Source: Nocardioides ungokensis
Lineage (GTDB): Bacteria; Actinomycetota; Actinomycetes; Propionibacteriales; Nocardioidaceae
Direction: 5' to 3'
NCBI RefSeq assembly: GCF_013466985.1
Contig: NZ_CP059164.1
Coordinates: 1,993,001-2,057,000, forward strand
Length of the DNA stretch: 64,000 nucleotides
A model generated the notes under the pieces. That model was not told the origin of the DNA and searched no databases. It worked only from the letters and a program-made list of their open reading frames with translations. This document shows positions 54,027 to 64,000 of this stretch, one piece after another. Numbering within the stretch: the stretch's first letter is position 1; each line of letters begins with the position of its first letter. The translations under genes were made by a program, and so were the position numbers.

Positions 54027-54260
54027 TCACGTGGGTCGGCGCGTGCCTTCCTCCGGTGCCACCTCGCCATGCGTGGACTGGTAGACCACCTCGTACCTCT
54101 TGCCACTGTTCTTCACCATCGCGGTGATCAGGGCCGCGAGGGGCATGGCCATGAAGGCGCCCATGGGTCCCGCAGCAAGGCCACCTGCGAGGGTGCGCCA
54201 AAGGCCACCGCCGCCTGACCGGAGAGGCCGGCGGCGGACCTTGCCGTTCGGGCGCGTCAC
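54027..54260 (-). CDS. Small single-pass membrane protein coupled to HdeD-like gene
   Basis: A 77-residue protein starting at GTG 54260, which overlaps the stop of the HdeD-like gene (GTGA at 54257-54260). A basic N-terminus (TRPNGKVRRRPLRSG) precedes one hydrophobic helix (GGLAAGPMGAFMAMPLAALITAMV) and an acidic tail. Function unknown; coupling suggests it works with the HdeD-like protein. Confidence 0.6.
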   Translation of the reverse strand: MTRPNGKVRRRPLRSGGGGLWRTLAGGLAAGPMGAFMAMPLAALITAMVKNSGKRYEVVYQSTHGEVAPEEGTRRPT

Positions 54261-54840
54261 GCGGCCAGTCGGTCCGCCTGCTCGCCGACCTGCCGCAGGG
54301 TGAAACCGGCGAAGATCTCGATCACCCCACGACAGATGGCCCACACTCCGACGAGGGTCACCAGTGTCACCAGCGAGCGCTCCCACGAGCGGGCTGCCCA
54401 CACCCCGAGCACCAGCTCGGAGATGCCGAGCAGCAGCCCGGTCCACCACCAGGGCAGCTTGGCGCCGGCCAGCGCGTTGATCACGTGATCGTGCCGAACA
54501 CGATCAAGTACCACGCCACGAGGATCGAGACGGCATAGAGGGTGACGCCTGGCCAGACAATGGTGACGACGCCGGCGGCCACTCCCAATGTCCCGCCCAC
54601 GATGGACAGCCAGCGCAGGGTGGGCACCCGACTGGCCACCGCCAGCTGCGTGATGCCGCCGAACACGAATGCCACTCCGACAAATGTCGCCACCGCGACC
54701 AGGCTGCCCACCTTGAAGGACAGCACGAACATGCCGAACCCGACCCACAGGGCCCCCAGGGCCACGAGCCACCACCAGGTCGCCGACGCGTCCCGGACCG
54801 TCTCGCGGAGCAGGTCCGGGGTCTTCAAGTCACTTGTCAT
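54257..54840 (-). CDS. HdeD/DUF308 family membrane protein, frame broken near 54486
   Basis: About 193 residues. Six short membrane helices in the HdeD pattern: WWWLVALGALWVGFGMFVLSF, LVAVATFVGVAFVFGGITQLAVA, LSIVGGTLGVAAGVVTIVWPG, then after one restored C near 54486, HVINALAGAKLPWWWTGLLLGISELVLGVWA and VTLVGVWAICRGVIEIFAGFTLRQVG. The family is linked to acid and envelope stress. ATG 54840 has AGGAGATTTGTA upstream. Confidence 0.8.
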
Positions 54841-54953: not shown

Positions 54954-55409
54954 CTACGAGTTGGCCGCGGCCCGGGCGAGTGTGTCGGCGTAGGCACGGG
55001 CGTGGATGGCATCGAGCATCGTCAGCTGGGCGCTCTCGACCGCCCAGTCGGCGAAGTCGAGGGCTTCGGCCGCGTCGGCTTCCGCCCAGTCCGCGTCGGA
55101 TGCGGCGACCTTGGCGTCCACCTGGCGGGTCCGCTTGTCGATGTTCGCCTTGACGTCGCTCATCTTGGCCGCCGCGTCAGTCTTCATCTGCGCCCACTTC
55201 GCCCGAGCGCTGTCGGCGGCCTGGGAGGCCTCGTCGCGTGCGTTCTCGACTGACTGGTCCAGCTCGGCCTGGGCCTGATCGATCCGCTGCCTGAGCTGGG
55301 CATCGGACTCGGCGGCGGCAGACTGCACCGCCGACCTGGCCGTCGCGACGCGCTGCTGCAGCTCGTCGAGTCGCGTAGAGAAATCGTGTGCTGCTTCATG
55401 TGTAACCAC
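54954..55409 (-). CDS. Alanine-rich coiled-coil protein, phasin candidate
   Basis: A 151-residue, mostly helical protein without hydrophobic segments. Residues about 10-110 form a long heptad-like coiled coil (LDELQQRVATARSAVQSAA, IDQAQAELDQSVENAR). The C-terminus (FADWAVESAQLTMLDAIHARAYADTLA) is amphipathic. Size and character fit phasins, which coat PHA granules, though no sequence signature proves it. Its promoter carries a large palindrome (55447-55478) that shares its core with the site before phaC, and phaZ and phaC lie directly upstream on the same strand. Confidence 0.6.
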   Translation of the reverse strand: MVTHEAAHDFSTRLDELQQRVATARSAVQSAAAESDAQLRQRIDQAQAELDQSVENARDEASQAADSARAKWAQMKTDAAAKMSDVKANIDKRTRQVDAKVAASDADWAEADAAEALDFADWAVESAQLTMLDAIHARAYADTLARAAANS

Positions 55410-55446
55410 CTTCTTGGTCGGGCCCCGAAGGGCACGTGGAATTGTT

Positions 55447-55478
55447 CCGCAGTTCTGACGATAACGTCAGAACTGCGG
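55447..55478. promoter_or_regulatory. 32-bp palindrome with TGACG-ATAA-CGTCA core (operator A)
   Basis: Perfect 14-bp arms (CCGCAGTTCTGACG and its reverse complement) around ATAA. The core at 55456-55469 equals the core of operator B at 58202-58215. It sits about 38 bp before the phasin-like gene. It could also act as a terminator of the phaC-phaZ transcript, but the identical core elsewhere argues for protein binding. Confidence 0.7.
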
Positions 55479-55606
55479 ACAGCGCAAGAGGTTAATGACG
55501 AAATCTCAGTTAGTGCGTCAGCCCCGCCGGGCGGCCGGTCGCGGTGGGCGGGTCTGCTCGATCGAGCCCTCCGCCGTCGTCATGGCCGGAGCGGGACAGC
55601 GAGTCG

Positions 55607-56436
55607 TCAGCTGCTCTTCGAGGCGTTATCGCTGCTGGGAGAGGCCAGGAACCGCGAGACGAGGGGGCCGAGCTCGTCGGCTGAGGTGATCAGCCCGAGG
55701 TGGCCGTCGTCGAAGACGTGGAGGGACGCGTGGGGGAGCAGCGAGCGCATGATCCGCGCGTTCACCAGCGGGATGATCGGGTCGTCGTTCCCGGCGAGGA
55801 TCAAGGTGGGCTGCCGGATGAGCGGCAGCGCGGGAAGGCTCGACCAGCCGATCCCGGCGAGGAGCTGGAGGACGTACCCGGCTGTGGGCCCCAGGCGCTC
55901 CTGCTCGTGCATCACGTGCCAACCTCGTCGGGCTGTCGGCGCATTCGGCCGCCGTACATCTCCGCTGCGATGGCCCGGGCGTACGTCGGATCGCGGTAGC
56001 GCCTCGGGGTGAGCATCTTGCTGAGCACGCTGAGGCGGGCGGGCACCATCAGCATGCCGGTCCCGGTACTGGCCAGCACCAGACGCCGGCAGCGACGCGG
56101 GTACTGGAACGCCAGCTGCTGGGCCAGGCCGCCGCCCCAAGAGATGCCGAGGGCGTCGAACTGGTCGTGGCCCAGCCGGTCGACCAGGGTCCCGACCAGC
56201 CAGGCCAGCAACGCGAAGTTGTAGGGCACCTTGGGTGCCGGCGAGCCCCCCACGCCGGGTACGTCGAACCGGATCACTTCGATCCGTGGGTCGACCTCGT
56301 CGACGAACGGCTGGAGCAGGTCGAGGCGGGCGCCGATGCCGTTGCAGAGCACCAATGGCGGCCCGGGGGCCGTGCCCGGCCGGACGGCGACCCGGACGTC
56401 GTGGCCGAGGACCCGGAGCCGGAGGTGCCTGGTCAC
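55607..56436 (-). CDS. phaZ: Poly(3-hydroxyalkanoate) depolymerase, frame broken near 55922
   Basis: About 276 residues of an alpha/beta hydrolase of the intracellular medium-chain-length PHA depolymerase type. PLVLCNGIGARLDLLQPFVD, VIRFDVPGVGGS, ALGISWGGGLAQQLAFQYP (nucleophile serine in GISWGG), PTLILAGNDDPIIPL (acid) and VFDDGHLGLIT (histidine) match this family closely. One missing base near 55922 separates the last third. GTG 56436 overlaps the phaC stop by GTGA. It releases monomers from stored polymer. Confidence 0.85.
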
Positions 56437-58117
56437 TTGTCCAGGACGTAGGTGCCGGGCGCCTCCGCGAGCACGCTCAGGCGGTGCGACCCGAGGGTCT
56501 GGGGCGCCGGACGCTGGGCGCCACTGCGTTCGTCGAGCCACAGGCCGAGGTCGGTCCACCAGGTGCCCGGGTGGACCTCGGTGCCGTCGAGCCAGGCCTC
56601 GGCGTCGGCCGCCAGATCGTCGTTGGTGTGGAAGGACGCCTTGGCGTTGCCTGGTGGGTTGACCAGGGCGGCGATGTGTCCACTGGTGGACAGCACGAAT
56701 CGGGTCGTGCCGCCGAAGAGCTGGGCGCTCCGATAGCAGCTCTCCCAGGGGGTGATGTGGTCGGCCATGCCGGCCACGAGGTAGGAGTCCACCGTGACGG
56801 CGCCGAGGTCGATCGGAACGCCGAGGACGGTGAGCTCGCCCGGGCGGGTCAGCAGGTTCTCCATCGCCAGGTCGACGAAGTCGGCGTGCAGGGCGGCGGT
56901 CATTCGCGTGGTGTCGGAGTTCCAGAACAGGATGTCGAAGGCGGGAGGTCGCTTGCCCAGCAGGTAGTTGTTGACCCAGTAGTTCCACACCAGGTCGCGG
57001 GGCCGGAGCCACGCGAACACCTCGGCCAGCGCCCGGCCGTCGAGGTAGCCCTTGCGCGCGGACTTCGCCTTGGCCCGGCCCGCCAGCTGCTCGTCGACGA
57101 GGGCGGAGACCGACCCGGCATCGTGGTTGTCGATGACCGTCACGGCCAGGCAGAGCGCGGCCAGCCGGTCCTGCCGGCCGGTGCCGGCGAGGTACGCCGC
57201 TGCCATGCTCGCGAGGATGCCACCGGAGCACACGCCGCCGAGCACCGTCCGGTGGCTGCCCGTGATCTCCTCAACGGCGTCCAGGGCCTCGAGCACCGCA
57301 CGAACGTAGGTGTCGAAGTCCATGAGGCGTGTCGAGCGTCGGGGTTGCGCCAGGAGATGACGAACATCTGTCTGCCCTGCCGGACGCCGAACTCCACGAG
57401 GCTGCGCTCCGGGGCGAGATCGATCGCGTAGAACTTGTTGATCGTGGGCGGGACCACCAACGCGGGAACCTCGTAGACCTCGTCGGTCTGCGGCGCGTAC
57501 TGGATCAGCTCCAGCACGTCGTTGCGAAACACGACCCCGCCCGGCGTCGCAGCGACGTTGTCGCCCACCGCGAACCCGGTGCCGTCGACCATCTCGGGGA
57601 TGCGCGGTGCCGAGGTCAGGTCCTTGACCAGCTGCCTGCCTCCGCGCGCCAGGCTCAGCCCCGCGGAGTCGACCGCCGCCTTCGCCGAGGCCGGGTTGAC
57701 CAGCGGGACGTTGCTGGGAGCGGTCGCCTCGATGAGGTTCTCCAGGCAGAACTGCACCCGCTTTCGGTCGCGTGGCGCGATGTCGGCATCGAGCACCAGC
57801 TGCTCGAGGGTCCGGCCGCTGGCCAGGTAGAGCTGGACCAGCCGCTTCAGCAGGGGGTTCGAGGTCCACGCGACGTCGGTGAACCGGCGGTCCCCGCGCA
57901 GCGGTGCGACCGTGGAAGTGCCGGTCAGGATGCGCCCGGCTTCGGCGCCCAACCCGCCCAGCCGTCGCGCCGTGATACCCGGTCTGCGGGCAAGGGAGAC
58001 CGCCCACTTCGCCGTCGACCTGTCGGGTACGAAACGTCGGACCGGGCCGAGCGCCGAGTCGACCAGCAGGACATCGAGGGGAGCGGCCCTCTCGGGGAGG
58101 GGGGTGGTGGCGGTCAT
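56433..58117 (-). CDS. phaC: Polyhydroxyalkanoate synthase (class II-like), frame broken near 57326
   Basis: About 562 residues. The catalytic cysteine is in the lipase-like box GGVCSGG; the aspartate is in GMADHITPWESCYRS and the histidine in SGHIAALVNPPGNAKASF. The N-terminal half (FTDVAWTSNPLLKRLVQLYLAS, VPALVVPPTINKFYAIDL) is typical of class I/II synthases. One C missing near 57326 breaks the frame between RNPDARHA and MDFDTYVRAV. ATG 58117 follows GAGGAGCTCC. Operator B lies 84 bp upstream. It polymerises hydroxyacyl-CoA; the long single-subunit form with a PhaZ neighbour favours medium-chain substrates, which is inference. Confidence 0.9.
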
Positions 58118-58200: not shown

Positions 58201-58216
58201 CTGACGATAACGTCAG
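58201..58216. promoter_or_regulatory. CTGACG-ATAA-CGTCAG palindrome (operator B)
   Basis: A perfect 6-bp-arm palindrome in the 207-bp gap between the TetR gene and phaC. Its 14-bp core TGACGATAACGTCA is identical to that of operator A. It is 84 bp before the phaC start. Confidence 0.65.
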
Positions 58217-58324: not shown

Positions 58325-58975
58325 TCAGGAAGCTGTGGGGACGGTGAGGTCGGGTAGCGGGAGGTTGCAGATGCGCCGAGCCGTCGTGGCCCGCATGCCG
58401 AACATGCGCAGAAGCTCTTCGGTCACCCGGTCGGTGGTCTCCTCGGCATCGCGCTCCGGCTGGTCCTGCAGCAGCTGGCCAAGGGCGATGAGGGCTCCGG
58501 CGGCCATCGTCACCGCGACCTCGAGGTCCTCGACGTGGAAGCGGCCGGCATCCATGGCGGCCTTGATGTCGCGCCGGGCTCGTGGCGCCAGACCGTTGTC
58601 TGCGCTGAGCAACCGGAGCACGTTGTTGAGGAAGACCCGGCTGAGCTCGGGCTCCCTGCGTTGCAGCCGTCCGGTGAGGCGGAAGCTGCAGGCGAACACC
58701 TCTGCGGGGTCCTCGATGTCCTTGGTCAACTGGTCGAGCAGTTGGCCGTAACCGTCCATCACTGCCTCGACGGCGGCCTCGAAGAGCTCTTCCTTCGTCG
58801 CGAAGTGGTTGTAGAAGGAGCCCATCCCGACGTCGGCGGCCTGGGTGATCTCCAGGATCGGCGCGTTCGTCCGGCCCTCGGCGATGAGCAGTTGAGCAGC
58901 CCGGATGAGAGCTGCCCGGGTCTGGGCCTTGCGGCGGTCCAGCCGGTTGGGCTCCTGGGTTGTTGCGTTGCTCAT
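58325..58975 (-). CDS. TetR-family transcriptional regulator
   Basis: A 216-residue repressor. The N-terminal HTH is ILEITQAADVGMGSFYNHFATKEELFEAAVEA, preceded by the usual helix (KAQTRAALIRAAQLLIAEG). The rest is a helical ligand-binding and dimer domain. It lies upstream of phaC on the same strand and is divergent from the catabolic operon, with palindromes on both sides, so it is the likely binder of operators A, B and C. A hydroxyacyl-CoA or aromatic intermediate as ligand is conceivable but unproven. Confidence 0.92.
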   Translation of the reverse strand: MSNATTQEPNRLDRRKAQTRAALIRAAQLLIAEGRTNAPILEITQAADVGMGSFYNHFATKEELFEAAVEAVMDGYGQLLDQLTKDIEDPAEVFACSFRLTGRLQRREPELSRVFLNNVLRLLSADNGLAPRARRDIKAAMDAGRFHVEDLEVAVTMAAGALIALGQLLQDQPERDAEETTDRVTEELLRMFGMRATTARRICNLPLPDLTVPTAS

Positions 58976-59058
58976 GACCGCTCCTCGGTGTCCTCGGTGG
59001 ATGGTGCGCGTGCATTCTAGCGCAGCGCAGTCAGCAATGACGATTTCCTCAAAAACTC

Positions 59059-59097
59059 TTGACTGAACATATATTCGTAAGTGACGATCTCGTCACT
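59059..59097 (+). promoter_or_regulatory. Promoter with overlapping AGTGACG-ATCT-CGTCACT palindrome (operator C)
   Basis: TTGACT (59059-59064) is a good -35. Eighteen bases on, GACGAT (59083-59088) can serve as -10 and lies inside the palindrome whose core TGACG-ATCT-CGTCA spans 59082-59095 and whose arms extend to AGTGACGA/TCGTCACT (59080-59097). Binding there would block the promoter of the dioxygenase operon starting at 59120. Confidence 0.6.
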
Positions 59098-59119: not shown

Positions 59120-60253
59120 ATGACCAGTCACCACGGGACCCACAACGACCTGCACAGCGAGCAGGGCGCGCGGCGCGGCGAGCACCCGGGACGCGCGAAG
59201 AACCCCGTCATCAAGGTGCTCGACCTGGCCTGGCTCGAGTTCACCAAGCCCGACCTTGCGGCCTCGGAGCGGTTCGCGCAGGCGTTCGGCTTCACCACCG
59301 TGAGCCGGACCGCGGACGAGCTGCAGCTGCGCGGGACCGGCACCGGAGCGGCGTGCGTGATCGTCCGCCGTGGACCGCGCTCGAGGTACTTGGGTGCGGC
59401 CTTCAGAGCCGCGGACTCCGCCGACGTGGTCCGGCTCGCCGACGCCACGGGGGCGAAGGTCGAGAAGTTGCCGGAGAGCATCGGCGGGCTCGCCGTGGAC
59501 CTGACCGACCCGACCGGCCTGCTGGCACGGGTGGTCGCCGACACCCATGAGCTCGCCGCCCTGCCGGACCAGCCGACGCAGGTGTTCAACTTCGGCGACG
59601 AGACGCCCCGGGCGAATCGCCCGCAGCGCCCGCCCCGCGAGCCCGCGAGGATCCAGCGACTCGGGCACGTGGTGCTCCAGACCACGGCCTACATGGAGAC
59701 CCTGAACTGGTACCTGCAGCACCTGGGTCTCATCGTCAGCGACTTCAAGTACTACGAGGGCCAGCGTGAACGGGGGCCCACGATGGGCTTCATCCGCTGT
59801 GACCGTGGCGCGACCGCGACCGACCATCACACCCTGGCGATGACGCTCGGCCCGCGGAACCGGTACGTGCACTCGGCCTACCAAGTGGGCGACCTCGACG
59901 CCTTGGCGGCCGGCGGGGAGTACCTCCGCGAGCGGGGCTTCCAACACTCCTGGGGCATCGGCCGGCACATCGAGGGCAGCCAGATCTTCGACTACTGGCG
60001 CGACCCGGACGGCCTCCTGGTCGAGCACTTTGCCGACGGCGACCTGTTCGACTCCACCCTGGAGCCCGGCTGGTCCCCGATGACGGCTTCGGGGCTGGCG
60101 CAGTGGGGACCGCCAGTCACCAAGGACTTCCTCGGCCTCGCCCCCGGACCCGAGGCCCTGCGCGAGCTGGTGTCCATGGCTCACGCGCTGCGCGACGACA
60201 ACGAGTTCGATCTGACCCGCCTTCGCGGCCTCCTGAAAGTAGCCACCTCATGA
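59120..60253 (+). CDS. Extradiol dioxygenase-like VOC protein
   Basis: A 377-residue protein with two vicinal-oxygen-chelate modules (about 30-150 and 170-330), the size of catechol 2,3-dioxygenase-type enzymes. The second module holds the three candidate iron ligands: His in RLGHVVLQT, His in TDHHTLAM and Glu in LLVEHFADGD. It should cleave a substituted catechol by ring opening next to the hydroxyls. ATG 59120 follows GAGGAGCG. It is the first gene of a tightly coupled operon and has operator C in its promoter. Confidence 0.85.
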   Translation: MTSHHGTHNDLHSEQGARRGEHPGRAKNPVIKVLDLAWLEFTKPDLAASERFAQAFGFTTVSRTADELQLRGTGTGAACVIVRRGPRSRYLGAAFRAADSADVVRLADATGAKVEKLPESIGGLAVDLTDPTGLLARVVADTHELAALPDQPTQVFNFGDETPRANRPQRPPREPARIQRLGHVVLQTTAYMETLNWYLQHLGLIVSDFKYYEGQRERGPTMGFIRCDRGATATDHHTLAMTLGPRNRYVHSAYQVGDLDALAAGGEYLRERGFQHSWGIGRHIEGSQIFDYWRDPDGLLVEHFADGDLFDSTLEPGWSPMTASGLAQWGPPVTKDFLGLAPGPEALRELVSMAHALRDDNEFDLTRLRGLLKVATS

Positions 60254-61188
60254 GCATCACCCTCCTTCGGACCGCCGACGCCTGGTGGGTCCGCACGCCC
60301 CGCGGCGCGGCCCGCGTCGAGACCGACGCCAGGACCACCCGCGAGCTCCTCGCCGCACCGGAGAAGATCCACACGGCGTCGAGCAGCCCGACGACCGTCG
60401 ACGAGGCCACGCTCGCTCTGCAGTCTCCCGTGACGGCACCCTGCCGCCTGGTGGCCCAGATGACGAACTTCGCCAGCCACGTCAAGGACTCAGGTCTCGA
60501 CCCCGAGACCATCCCGCTGACCTTCTTCCGCAAGACCTCGGGCTCGATCAGCGGCCCGCTCGACCACATCGTCCGCCCGGACCACGTCCGCTGCCTGGAC
60601 TACGAGGTCGAGATCGGCCTGGTGCTCGGCCGAGAGCTGCCCGTCGGCACGCACGTCACCGAGGAGAACTGGACCTCGTTCGTCGCCGGCCTCGTGGTGA
60701 CCAACGACGTGTCGGCCCGCGACGTGCAGCTGCCGAAGACCCAGTTCTTCGAGTCCAAGTCCTACCCGACCTTCACCCCCGTCGGACCTTCGCTCGTGCT
60801 GCTGGACCAGGACGAGCTGAAGCGGTTCGGTGACCTGCGCCTCCGCCTGTGGGTCAACGGCGAGCTGCGCCAGGACTCCCTGGTCGATGACGACATGATC
60901 TACCCCCCGGTGGTGGCTTTGCAGGCGCTGAGCCGGTTCCAGCGACTCGACGTGGGCGACCTGCTCCTGACCGGGACCCCGGAAGGGACCGCCCTGAGCG
61001 CGCCGCCGAAGCCCGTCGAGATCATCGCCGCGCTGCTGCCGCCCGCGCTGAAGTGGAAGCTCTTCTTCCAGCGCCAGGAACGGAACCCCAAGTACCTCAA
61101 GGCCGGCGACCTCGTCGAGCTCGCGATCGGGACCGACGACGGCGCCATCGACCTCGGCCGCCAGCGCACCGTCGTCAGGAGCGCCTGA
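60250..61188 (+). CDS. Fumarylacetoacetate hydrolase family protein
   Basis: A 312-residue enzyme. The metal-binding block DYEVEIGLVLGRELP, VTNDVSARDVQL, GPSLVLLDQ and LLTGTPEGTALS are standard for the FAH fold, which includes hydratases, decarboxylases and C-C hydrolases of meta-cleavage pathways. In this operon it probably processes the ring-cleavage product. ATGA overlap with the dioxygenase gene and TGATG overlap with the ligase gene. Confidence 0.9.
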   Translation: MSITLLRTADAWWVRTPRGAARVETDARTTRELLAAPEKIHTASSSPTTVDEATLALQSPVTAPCRLVAQMTNFASHVKDSGLDPETIPLTFFRKTSGSISGPLDHIVRPDHVRCLDYEVEIGLVLGRELPVGTHVTEENWTSFVAGLVVTNDVSARDVQLPKTQFFESKSYPTFTPVGPSLVLLDQDELKRFGDLRLRLWVNGELRQDSLVDDDMIYPPVVALQALSRFQRLDVGDLLLTGTPEGTALSAPPKPVEIIAALLPPALKWKLFFQRQERNPKYLKAGDLVELAIGTDDGAIDLGRQRTVVRSA

Positions 61189-63065
61189 TGAATGACCTGC
61201 TGTGGCCAACGTACGACGGCCCACGCCACCTCGCCGCCATCGAGGAGGTGGCCCTGACCGACCGTGGCCTGCCCGGCACGACGTACGACCTGCTGGTGCG
61301 GGCCGCCCGTCTGTGGCCGGACCGGGTCGCCCTGTCCGTGCTGCCGGACGGCGAGCGGTGGGAGCAGCCGACGGAACGTACGTTCGCCGAGCTGCTGGCC
61401 GACGTGCACCGCTACGCCAACGCGTTCCACGCACTCGATGTGCGCCGCACGGACGGGGTCGCCTGCTGGCTCCGAACTGTGACGAGCTCATCACCGCGAC
61501 CCTCGCGGCCGAGCTCGCCGGCATCGCCGCGCCGATCAACGGTGGCCTGCCGGGCAGCACATCGTCGAACTGCTGCGCAGGTCGGGCGCGCGGGTCCTCG
61601 TCGCTGCAGGCCCCGACCTCGCACCCGAGGTCTGGACCAAGGCCCGGGGGATCGCCCGCGAGGCCGGCATCGAGACGCTGCTCGCCCTGTGTCCGACCGG
61701 GGGCGGCGCGGGGGAGCGGGACTGCCCCCGCTCGACGGCGTCCGGGTCGGCCACCTGTCGGCGCTGGCGGCGGAGCAGCCGCACGAGTGCTTCGTGGGGG
61801 AGCCGCCCTCGGCCACCGACCTCGCCGCCCTCTTCCACACCGGTGGTACGACGGCACGCCGAAGCTCGCGGCGCACACCCACGCCAACGAGGTCGCCGAC
61901 GCCTGGATGATCGCGGCGATCGGGGTCCTGGACGTTGAGTCCGTGGCCTTTGCCGCGTTGCCCCTCTTTCACGTGAACGCCCTCGTCGTCACCCTGCTCG
62001 CGCCGCTGTTCAAGGGGCAGCGGGGGGTGTGGGCGGGACCCCTCGGGTACCGCGACACGTCGCTGTTCGCCAGCTTCTGGAAGGTGGTCGAGCGGTACGG
62101 CATCAGCTTCATGAGCGGCGTCCCGACGATCTACGGGGTCCTCGCCGACCGCCCCGTCGATGCCGACATCGCCAGCCTGCGATTCGCCCTCGTCGGCGCG
62201 TCCGCCCTGCCGAAGGCGGTCCGCGAGCGGTTCGAGTCAGCTACCGGGGTGCCTCTCCTGGAGGGCTACGGCCTGACCGAGGCGACCTGCGCGAGCGCCC
62301 GCAGCTTCGTGGAGCACCCCGTCCCCGGGACGGCGGCCAGCGTCTGCCCTACCAGCAGGTGAAGACCATCGAGGTCACTGCAGAGGGGAATGGGTCGACC
62401 TGCCGACCGGTGAGATCGGGGTGCTCGCGATCGGCGGGCCGACCGTCTTCCCCGGCTACGTGGTCGACCGGGGTCCCGACGGGCCGGTGCTGGACGGGCT
62501 GGGCAAGCTGCGCCAGGGCTGGTTGGACACCGGCGACCTCGCCCGGATCGACGGTGACGGGTTCGTCCACCTCACCGGCCGCGCCAAGGACCTGATCATT
62601 CGAGGCGGTCACAACATCGACCCGGCCGTGATCGAGAACGCGTTGATGACACACCCGGCGGTCACGGCCGCGCAGGCCGTGGGTCGTCCCGACGTCCACG
62701 CCGGAGAGGTGCCGGTCGCGTTCGTCACTCTCGCCCCCGGCGCCGACGTGCGCCCCGTGGACCTGCGGGCCTGGGCGTGCGATCGCGTGCCCGAGCAGGC
62801 CGCGGCACCCAGGGCAGTCACCGTGCTGGACGCGCTTCCCGTCACCCCGGTGGGCAAGCCGTTCAAACCCGCCCTGCGCGCTGCGGCCACCGGTGAAGCC
62901 ATCGCCGACGCCCTCCGGGACATGCCCGCGATCACGGGTGTGCGGGGAGAGCTCGATGAGGGGGTCGTCGTCGCGATCGTCAGCCTGGCCCGTGGCGCCG
63001 ACGAGAGCGCGGTCAAGGAGGCGCTCAACCGCTTCGCCATCACCTGGAGATTGGAACTGTCATGA
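61188..63065 (+). CDS. AMP-forming acyl-CoA ligase, about six frame breaks
   Basis: About 625 residues read across breaks near 61468, 61555, 61720, 61852, 62340 and 62386. All core motifs of the adenylate-forming family are found in order: LFHTGGTTG-TPKLAAHTH (P-loop, needing one G at about 61852), FHVNALVV, EGYGLTEATCA, GWLDTGDLARIDGDGFVHLTGRAKDLIIRGGHNI, and LPVTPVGKPFKPALR with the catalytic lysine. It should activate an aromatic or aliphatic acid as CoA ester. Six breaks in 1 kb is more than elsewhere, so either a poor-quality stretch or a true pseudogene is possible; the coupled starts favour a functional gene. Confidence 0.75.
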
Positions 63066-63619
63066 CCCCAACACCGATTCTCGCGGGCCTTCTGGTCGTC
63101 GCGTTCGCGGCCGCCGGCTCGGCCAAGCTGGCGGCCGTGCCCACCATGCGCGCCCGAGCCGAACACGTCGGCTTCAGCGTCGCGGCGTACCGGCGGATCG
63201 GCCTGCTCGAGGTCACCGCCGTCCTCGGGCTGCTCGTCGGCGCGTTCGTCCCGGCGATCGGCGCCCTGGCCGCCGCGGGACTGCTGATCCTGCTCGGTGG
63301 GGCGATCGTCGCCCACCGTCGCAGCGGGGACGGCGTGCGCGAGGTCGCCCCGGCCCTCGTTCTAGGTCTGGCGACCCTGAGCTTCCTCCTCCTCGTGCTC
63401 GGAGACCTCGATGAACGGTTCGCATCGCCCGCACGACGACCCTGTCCCCGTCGTCATCGTGGGGGCCGGCCCCGTCGGCGTCACCGCCGCCACCCTCCTC
63501 GGGCAGTACGGCGTCGAGTGCCTCGTCCTGGACCGCTGGGACGGCGTCTACCACCAGCCCCGGGCGGTGCACCTCGACGACGAGATCTACCGGATCCTCG
63601 TACGCCTCGGCATCGGTGA
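63062..63619 (+). CDS. DoxX-like membrane protein
   Basis: Starts with an ATGA overlap at 63062. About 120 residues form four membrane helices (ILAGLLVVAFAAAGSAKLAAV, YRRIGLLEVTAVLGLLVG, FVPAIGALAAAGLLILLGGAIVAH, VAPALVLGLATLSFLLLVLG), as in small DoxX proteins. The open frame then continues as Arg/Pro-rich nonsense over the next gene, so the true end is probably near 63414, where a one-base change would give an ATGA overlap. Function in the pathway is unclear. Confidence 0.6.
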   Translation: MTPTPILAGLLVVAFAAAGSAKLAAVPTMRARAEHVGFSVAAYRRIGLLEVTAVLGLLVGAFVPAIGALAAAGLLILLGGAIVAHRRSGDGVREVAPALVLGLATLSFLLLVLGDLDERFASPARRPCPRRHRGGRPRRRHRRHPPRAVRRRVPRPGPLGRRLPPAPGGAPRRRDLPDPRTPRHR

Positions 63620-64000
63620 GCAGTTTGCCGCCGTGACCCGACCCACCAGCGGCCTGCAGCTGCTCGACCGCAACCACCGGGTCTTCGCGGTGTTCGACCG
63701 GCGCAGCACCCACGGCCGTCACGGGCACCCACAGGCCAACCTGTTCGACCAGCCCGAGCTCGAGCACCTGCTGCGCACCAACCTCAAGGACCAGACCACG
63801 GTCAGCCTGCGCGGCAACGTCGAGGTCACCGACGTCGCCCAGGACGGCCAGGGTCGCGTACTGGTGGACTTCACCGACCGGCTCACCGGCGAGCAGGAGT
63901 CCGTCCTGGCCACCTACGTCCTGGGTTGCGACGGGGCCAACAGCGTGGTCCGCACCGCAATCGGATCCACTATGGAGGACCTCGAGTTCGAGCAACGCTG
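63411..64000 (+). CDS. FAD-dependent aromatic hydroxylase (MhpA-like), 5' part
   Basis: Runs off the window end; 196 residues are seen. FAD-binding GxGxxG in VVIVGAGPVGVTAATLLGQYGVECLVLDR, PRAVHLDDEIYRIL, and the DG motif in YVLGCDGANSVVRTAIG identify a group A flavin monooxygenase like 3-(3-hydroxyphenyl)propionate hydroxylase. It would make the catechol cleaved by the dioxygenase at the start of the operon. ATG 63411 lies inside the open frame of the DoxX gene. Confidence 0.85.
   Translation, partial: MNGSHRPHDDPVPVVIVGAGPVGVTAATLLGQYGVECLVLDRWDGVYHQPRAVHLDDEIYRILVRLGIGEQFAAVTRPTSGLQLLDRNHRVFAVFDRRSTHGRHGHPQANLFDQPELEHLLRTNLKDQTTVSLRGNVEVTDVAQDGQGRVLVDFTDRLTGEQESVLATYVLGCDGANSVVRTAIGSTMEDLEFEQR

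Follow-up and report, generated by a model that had tools for sequence, protein, structure and literature searches.

Does the small alanine-rich protein encoded behind a polyhydroxyalkanoate (PHA) synthase gene in Nocardioides ungokensis coat PHA granules, and which regulator controls its synthesis? The question is raised by positions 54,954 to 58,117 of a 64,000-nucleotide stretch of contig NZ_CP059164.1 (positions 1,993,001 to 2,057,000; the window, hereafter the whole stretch). In this segment the genes for the synthase (phaC), an intracellular PHA depolymerase (phaZ) and the small helical protein (CC) follow one another. The original prediction described a phaC-phaZ operon and a candidate phasin, of a type not recognised by sequence, under the same operator. 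The gene order was confirmed by matches to PhaC_N, TIGR01839 and TIGR02240, and the Ala-rich CC open reading frame (ORF) lies around 200 bases after the phaZ stop. The absence of a phasin signature was also confirmed, since the profile searches gave no phasin match for CC. The prediction had missed a third operator copy, the gene of a RolR-like TetR regulator and frame changes in phaC, phaZ, the gene of the membrane protein DUF308 and the start of CC.

The reading preferred here, to which we give about an even chance as a whole, is a RolR-like, aromatics-type regulon that includes PHA storage and in which CC is a helical protein of lipid or membrane surfaces, co-induced with aromatic catabolism. 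PHA storage would have been drawn into this regulon. A RolR-like TetR repressor would bind palindromic TGACG-N4-CGTCA operators at three promoters: those of the ring-cleavage operon, of phaC-phaZ and of CC-DUF308. The ring-cleavage operon would comprise the flavin adenine dinucleotide (FAD) hydroxylase, the extradiol dioxygenase, the fumarylacetoacetate hydrolase (FAH)-type enzyme and the acyl-CoA synthetase. An inducer with a dihydroxy-aromatic ring would release the repressor. Then, the ring and side-chain carbon may be converted to acyl-CoA, part of which would be stored by PhaC and released by PhaZ, and CC, a small acidic Ala-rich helical protein, would be made at the same time.

Operators and candidate regulator

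The pattern TGACGATNWCGTCA has three exact matches in the window (55456, 58202 and 59082), all of them within the cluster. The operator that had been claimed as common to phaC and CC is indeed found before each gene as TGACGATAACGTCA. On the other hand, CC has its own copy and does not share that of phaC. A genome-wide count (4.62 Mb) gave 13 copies of the 10-base core TGACGNNNNCGTCA and 0 of a reversed control pattern. One other genome site has the same spacer type (C1:3711121) and is placed inside a coding ORF.

Orthologues of CC, with 72-86% identity, were found at eight loci in six genomes: the source, Kribbella steppae (two loci), K. rubisoli, Terrabacter sp. Root181, Nocardioides guangzhouensis and Kribbella sp. 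VKM Ac-2568 (two). The core is located just upstream of CC in all eight loci; the alignment also includes three remoter members (43-52% identity), which have no core at that place. The TetR gene (at least 78% identity) is present in the same locus in six of the eight. An exact core also precedes phaC in L007, L009 and L128, and the exact operator stands before phaC in four of the five genomes having phaC beside the RolR-like TetR gene. Both phaC and CC carry the exact operator in the window, L007 and L009, whereas in L010 it is found at CC only; in N. guangzhouensis the two copies are 14 kb apart. The possibility that the operators are chance matches was rejected, as their position is conserved across orthologous loci.

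Operator pairs separated by 43-45 bp, the second site with at most one mismatch, were observed at 13 of the 15 TetR loci with an exact core. At the CC promoters the pairs are 48-50 bp apart in six of eight cases, the exceptions being the window and L008. The CC operator is contained in a longer inverted repeat of 13 pairs (55450-55475 in the window, and the same place in L006-L012). The core of this dyad is nearly invariant and its arms covary between species, as if the dyad were kept. Two-sided changes affect 5 of the 13 pairs over eight related sequences, a score reached by 3 of 500 shuffles. Either a hairpin, formed in RNA that reads through from phaZ, or a wider DNA contact could account for the dyad.

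Gene identities, operators, conserved positions and neighbour counts are direct readings of the sequences. The regulon is well supported by this conservation, and so is the co-regulation of CC with phaC; the binding of the TetR protein to these sites, the class of inducer, the carbon flow and the surface role of CC are inferred. The gene at 58325-58975 is likely to encode the regulator of the cluster. The best solved-structure match of its product is 3aqs/3aqt (1.2e-34), an entry labelled as TetR-family protein only and taken here to be RolR. The assignment was matched to PMC3086911, the available part of which describes D94, R145, R148 and D149 of RolR as recognising resorcinol, partly through waters. 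In the structure-match alignment, D81, R132, R135 and D136 of the window protein align with these four residues and all are identical. The likeness to RolR, the regulator of resorcinol catabolism in Corynebacterium glutamicum, thus covers the four ligand residues and the adjoining aromatic operon. Unlike in the RolR system, the operon here is of the extradiol-cleavage type, and its operator recurs at phaC-phaZ and at CC.

Relatives of the TetR protein (E <= 1e-40) gave 35 matches in 30 of 391 genomes of the order, and the 30 matches that had loci were examined. A dioxygenase gene adjoins in 22 of these loci, an exact operator core is present in 15 and phaC, within 1.5-kb flanks, in two; a third phaC neighbour, in K. 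steppae, was seen in L131. Since the dioxygenase is the usual partner of this regulator, phaC-phaZ and CC look like additions.

The arrangement is somewhat similar to the pha cluster of Pseudomonas, in which, according to the accessible text of a review (PMC9049629), the TetR-like PhaD is tied to the promoters of the PHA synthase and of the phasins PhaI/PhaF. In both cases one TetR-like protein would serve the promoters of a synthase and of small proteins. However, PhaD is described there as an activator, whereas the regulator of the present cluster is of RolR type, presumably a repressor, and would also serve an aromatic operon. If true, control of a PHA synthase by an aromatics-type repressor would couple bioplastic storage directly to carbon from phenol-type compounds. 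No report of such a link was found in the literature searched, including the accessible part of that review; subscription papers are mostly outside this coverage.

Linkage of CC to phaC and distribution of its family

The phaC gene is placed within 3 kb of CC in four of the eight orthologue loci (window, L007, L009 and L010). Considering whole genomes, five of the six contain phaC beside the TetR gene together with an operator-bearing CC orthologue. In four of these CC is directly behind phaZ, and in N. guangzhouensis phaC is beside the TetR gene and approximately 14 kb from CC. A count free of CC selection gave phaC beside the TetR gene in three of the 391 order genomes (G000, G348 and G372), all three with a CC orthologue.

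Such linkage is what would be expected if CC were a true phasin of an unrecognised sequence type, coating the granules of the adjacent PhaC and made whenever phaC-phaZ is derepressed. The family search, based on an alignment of 11 CC members, bears on this in both directions. At the order level CC is present in 15 genomes, PhaC_N in 57 and both in nine. Thus, PhaC_N accompanies CC in 9 of 15 genomes and occurs in 48 of the 376 without CC (Fisher 4e-5, with no correction for relatedness; the table includes G381, the genome with the weakest CC match, E 8.4e-4). In three genomes of genus g28, inferred to be Kribbella, a distant CC is found 12-14 kb from phaC (G302, G352 and G366). Against a phasin, Kribbella sp. 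VKM Ac-2568 has two operator-bearing CC copies and no PhaC_N match; in the count free of CC selection, one genome (G364) has CC orthologues but no PhaC_N. Of the 15 order-level CC genomes, 6 have no PhaC_N. At the class level, CC is matched in 12 of 394 genomes, three of them only in part, and none of the seven full matches beyond G000 and G011 has PhaC_N (tested in 7 of the 10 further class genomes, with the partial matches G564, G761 and G810 left out). Furthermore, a composition filter was applied to the 2.5 kb or so that follow phaZ in 17 phaC-phaZ loci where CC does not adjoin, and it found no charged small ORF poor in proline and glycine; two of these genomes (G302 and G366) hold a distant CC elsewhere. 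An Ala-rich charged ORF elsewhere in L137, considered as a substitute phasin, was rejected as it looks DksA-like.

Although the CC gene is linked to phaC and shares its operator type, CC is not classed as a phasin, because it has no phasin profile match and is not confined to genomes with a PHA synthase. The co-regulation contained in the original prediction stands, whereas the phasin identity has only partial support; we regard a true phasin as possible, though unlikely.

The neighbours of the wider family also count against a phasin. Of 23 CC loci, 12 have a DUF308 ORF no more than 5 kb from CC (8 of them within 250 bp), against 0 of 44 control loci (279.5 kb in total), and phaC is found within 3 kb of CC in four of the 23. 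The scan covered 31 CC loci, of which eight with 1.5-kb flanks only, and no DUF308, were not included in the 23. The association with DUF308 suggests another explanation, namely that CC acts together with DUF308 as a stress protein and is never placed on PHA or lipid bodies, the co-regulation with phaC reflecting their joint recruitment to an aromatic-stress regulon. It agrees with a weak match to the sll1863 stress family in 8 of the 11 CC members (best 0.0013) and with the hydroxylase and dioxygenase genes, which point to phenolic substrates. However, for the member whose scores are given the sll1863 match, at 16.6 bits, falls short of the 35-bit cut-off, and DUF308 was not found near CC in 11 of the 23 loci, including six of the eight orthologues, among which phaC is the commoner neighbour. 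A stress protein of this kind is considered rather improbable.

Some loci of the family deserve a separate description. In K. steppae, a C-terminal remnant of phaZ is placed between the TetR gene and CC (L006 1136-1277); here phaC-phaZ were deleted and the operator and CC were kept. L007 is a second, complete copy of the locus in the same organism. A truncated third copy of CC, with an exact operator upstream, is located at a contig end behind another copy of the TetR gene (L154 1443-1650). In L012 no convincing phaC remnant was found between the TetR gene and CC. A distant CC is directly beside DUF308 in L074 (10258-11286) and L080 (9351-10387), with no phaC match in the 20-kb stretch, and CC-DUF308 may thus form an independent module. 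The Pseudonocardia metagenome-assembled genome that contains L013 (G875) has five PhaC_N matches. The plasmid collection gave no match to CC.

Nature of the CC protein

The CC ORF encodes 151 residues (16.3 kDa, isoelectric point 4.65, 28% Ala). AlphaFold predicts four helices, with poor agreement among its five models (mean pLDDT from 82 down to 39). The size and the predicted helices would fit a phasin. Nevertheless, the Pfam and NCBIfam families listed for the window CC, to a limit of E 10, include no phasin profile, and the same is true of the 25 families most often matched by the 11 members, out of 57 from Pfam and 53 from NCBIfam; in this CC is unlike the Pseudomonas phasins PhaI/PhaF. 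A Foldseek search of the CC model gave no match below E 1. A second structure comparison gave middling Z values, mostly on residues 34-96; no phasin structure is among the matches listed for the model, which proves nothing. The profile search against the PDB returned nothing significant, its weak rows including 1szi (mannose-6-phosphate receptor binding protein 1, a perilipin; E 1.1) and apolipoprotein A-I (E 5).

The apolipoprotein profile PF01442 gives a match in each of the 11 CC members, the best at 2.9e-06 and still short of the curated cut-off, and in none of 10 shuffles; on the window CC it scores 24.5 vs 90 bits, far under the cut-off. A comparable resemblance has been reported for HBHA, a protein acting in lipid inclusions whose best profile match, in the available part of the source, is to apolipoprotein A1/A4/E (PMC6176652). 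The resemblance is common to HBHA and all CC members, and it is the one likeness noted between CC and the actinobacterial lipid-inclusion proteins HBHA, TadA and MLDS, which are tied to storage-lipid bodies. Unlike PHA granules, these bodies hold triacylglycerol. The Rhodococcus ruber phasin GA14 is likewise a small protein of an actinobacterium and is found on granules (PMC5658603, accessible part). It binds through two C-terminal hydrophobic patches according to the same text, whereas no stretch of CC is strongly hydrophobic (its Kyte-Doolittle mean over 19 residues reaches at most 0.64).

A lipid-surface role, perhaps also on PHA granules, is plausible because the recurring apolipoprotein match resembles that reported for HBHA and because phaC leads among the neighbours of the eight orthologues. 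Most likely CC resides at the surface of lipids or membranes without being a phasin dedicated to PHA. A bolder proposal, to which we attach little probability, is that CC represents a new family of actinobacterial lipid-inclusion coats, apolipoprotein-like and not phasin-like, wired through a RolR-type repressor. The breakdown of lipid-bearing phenols (e.g. alkylresorcinols), PHA storage and inclusion coating would then start together.

The granule proteins so far recognised in the PHA storage of actinobacteria are few. A study of Rhodococcus jostii RHA1 left undecided if the small ORFs beside the PHA synthases are phasins (PMC2667194), a point that also leaves room for a phasin here. The present locus gives a defined candidate for a granule protein with a likely regulator and operators.

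Several findings weigh against an aromatics-type regulon with CC as a lipid-surface protein. Of the eight orthologue loci, two contain DUF308 (window and L012), two others, L010 and L011, keep short remnants of it, and four contain phaC. Most of the five genomes with phaC, the TetR gene and CC were found through CC, which is a selection bias, and the phaC and phaZ frames are broken in the window. The counts of the core against the control pattern in five relatives are 25 vs 18, 10 vs 1, 15 vs 18, 24 vs 3 and 16 vs 19, and the bare core is little or no commoner than the control in the three Kribbella genomes (the first, third and fifth of these pairs). Because of these counts the core by itself is not specific, and it is its conserved position that carries the argument. 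In Terrabacter, phaC is not preceded by an exact core. Six ORFs went into the DUF308 profile: five come from loci counted in the 23 (L013, L074, L080, L082 and L084) and the sixth from L075, which spans the region of L012. Several CC loci also share a genome. As the profile ORFs came from near CC and loci share genomes, the significance of DUF308 as a neighbour is overstated. Finally, the amphipathicity of CC is not above that of shuffled sequences: depending on the member, between 72 and 245 of 500 shuffles attain its mean hydrophobic moment, a result that also speaks against a phasin. The helical periodicity is weak, with a peak near 99 degrees in most members that is reached by 74 to 465 of 1000 shuffles (first 98 residues of CC; the comparison of a heptad coiled coil with an 11-residue repeat was not used). 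Since neither the moment nor the periodicity stands out, the lipid-surface role rests on the sub-threshold profile match.

Gene identities and frame changes

The minus strand is transcribed in the order TetR gene, phaC, phaZ, CC and DUF308. The genes of the extradiol-dioxygenase-like protein, the FAH-type hydrolase, the acyl-CoA synthetase, the DoxX-like protein and the MhpA-like FAD hydroxylase are divergent, on the plus strand (Table 1).

Table 1. Genes and putative operators of the cluster, in window positions
Feature	Position	Strand	Remarks
RolR-like TetR repressor (putative)	58325..58975	-	PF00440 + PF21306; best solved-structure match 3aqs/3aqt
Operator TGACGATAACGTCA upstream of phaC	58202..58215		Exact match
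Operator TGACGATAACGTCA upstream of CC, inside longer dyad	55456..55469		Exact match
Operator TGACGATCTCGTCA, divergent dioxygenase promoter	59082..59095		Exact match; same place in relatives
Second, weaker operator TGACGATTTCCTCA	59038..59051		44 bp upstream of the 59082 copy
phaC, PHA synthase nearest class II	56433..58117	-	Frame change near 57320; intact in L007 and L009
phaZ, intracellular PHA depolymerase TIGR02240	55607..56436 (approximate)	-	Frame change near 55920
CC, 16-kDa Ala-rich helical protein	54954..55409	-	Start probably ATG 55399, frame change a few codons later
DUF308 (HdeD-like) membrane protein	54257..54840	-	Frame change near 54487; intact 198-aa orthologue directly behind CC in L012/L075
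Extradiol-dioxygenase-like protein (glyoxalase/VOC superfamily)	59120..60253	+	PF00903 above cut-off; NCBIfam extradiol models below cut-offs
Fumarylacetoacetate-hydrolase-type enzyme	60250..61188	+	83-85% identical to L071/L075 orthologues; PF01557 in orthologue
Acyl-CoA synthetase (AMP-binding)	61188..63062	+	Frame broken in window; intact orthologue L075 passes NF005714
DoxX-like membrane protein	63062..63409	+	Matches relatives
MhpA-like FAD hydroxylase, 5' part	63411..64000	+	Continues past window; orthologue L075 passes NF004829

The PhaC_N domain (PF07167, 2.8e-52) is found at 57140-58117 on the minus strand, with a score well over the Pfam cut-off. At 56433-57329, the other half of the synthase matches TIGR01839 (1.2e-105), and its translation contains a lipase-type box, GGVCSGG. 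The class assignment is approximate, as the intact orthologue in L009 is under both NCBIfam cut-offs (588.8 vs 855.4 for the class II model TIGR01839 and 499.9 vs 622.65 for class I). The intact phaZ orthologue in L009 passes the TIGR02240 cut-off (285.2 vs 250.6), and the window phaZ matches this model as two pieces, each under the cut-off.

In comparison with intact relatives, the frame shifts in phaC, phaZ and DUF308 at the positions of Table 1, more than once in the AMP ligase and once in the FAD hydroxylase. Most relatives of CC begin with MTQHTNF or MTQHTDF, and the window reads MKQHT from the ATG at 55399 before the frame is lost; for this reason the GTG at 55409 is probably wrong as the start of CC and the ATG probably the true one. 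These changes could mean that the locus is decaying in the source organism, with phaC, phaZ, DUF308 and the ligase as pseudogenes and no PHA made, a matter separate from the role of CC. However, where the coordinates were worked out (phaZ, DUF308 and the CC start) the break is one missing base, and the six broken genes are neighbours with conserved frames on either side of the breaks. The TetR, dioxygenase, FAH and DoxX proteins each match their relatives in one piece. Moreover, the genome is only 91.66% complete as a single 4.62-Mb contig, which fits uncorrected long-read error. The frame changes are probably sequencing errors of such an assembly, and decay is improbable. The phaC of Terrabacter sp. 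Root181 (L010, near 4801) also changes frame, approximately 50 codons ahead of its end.

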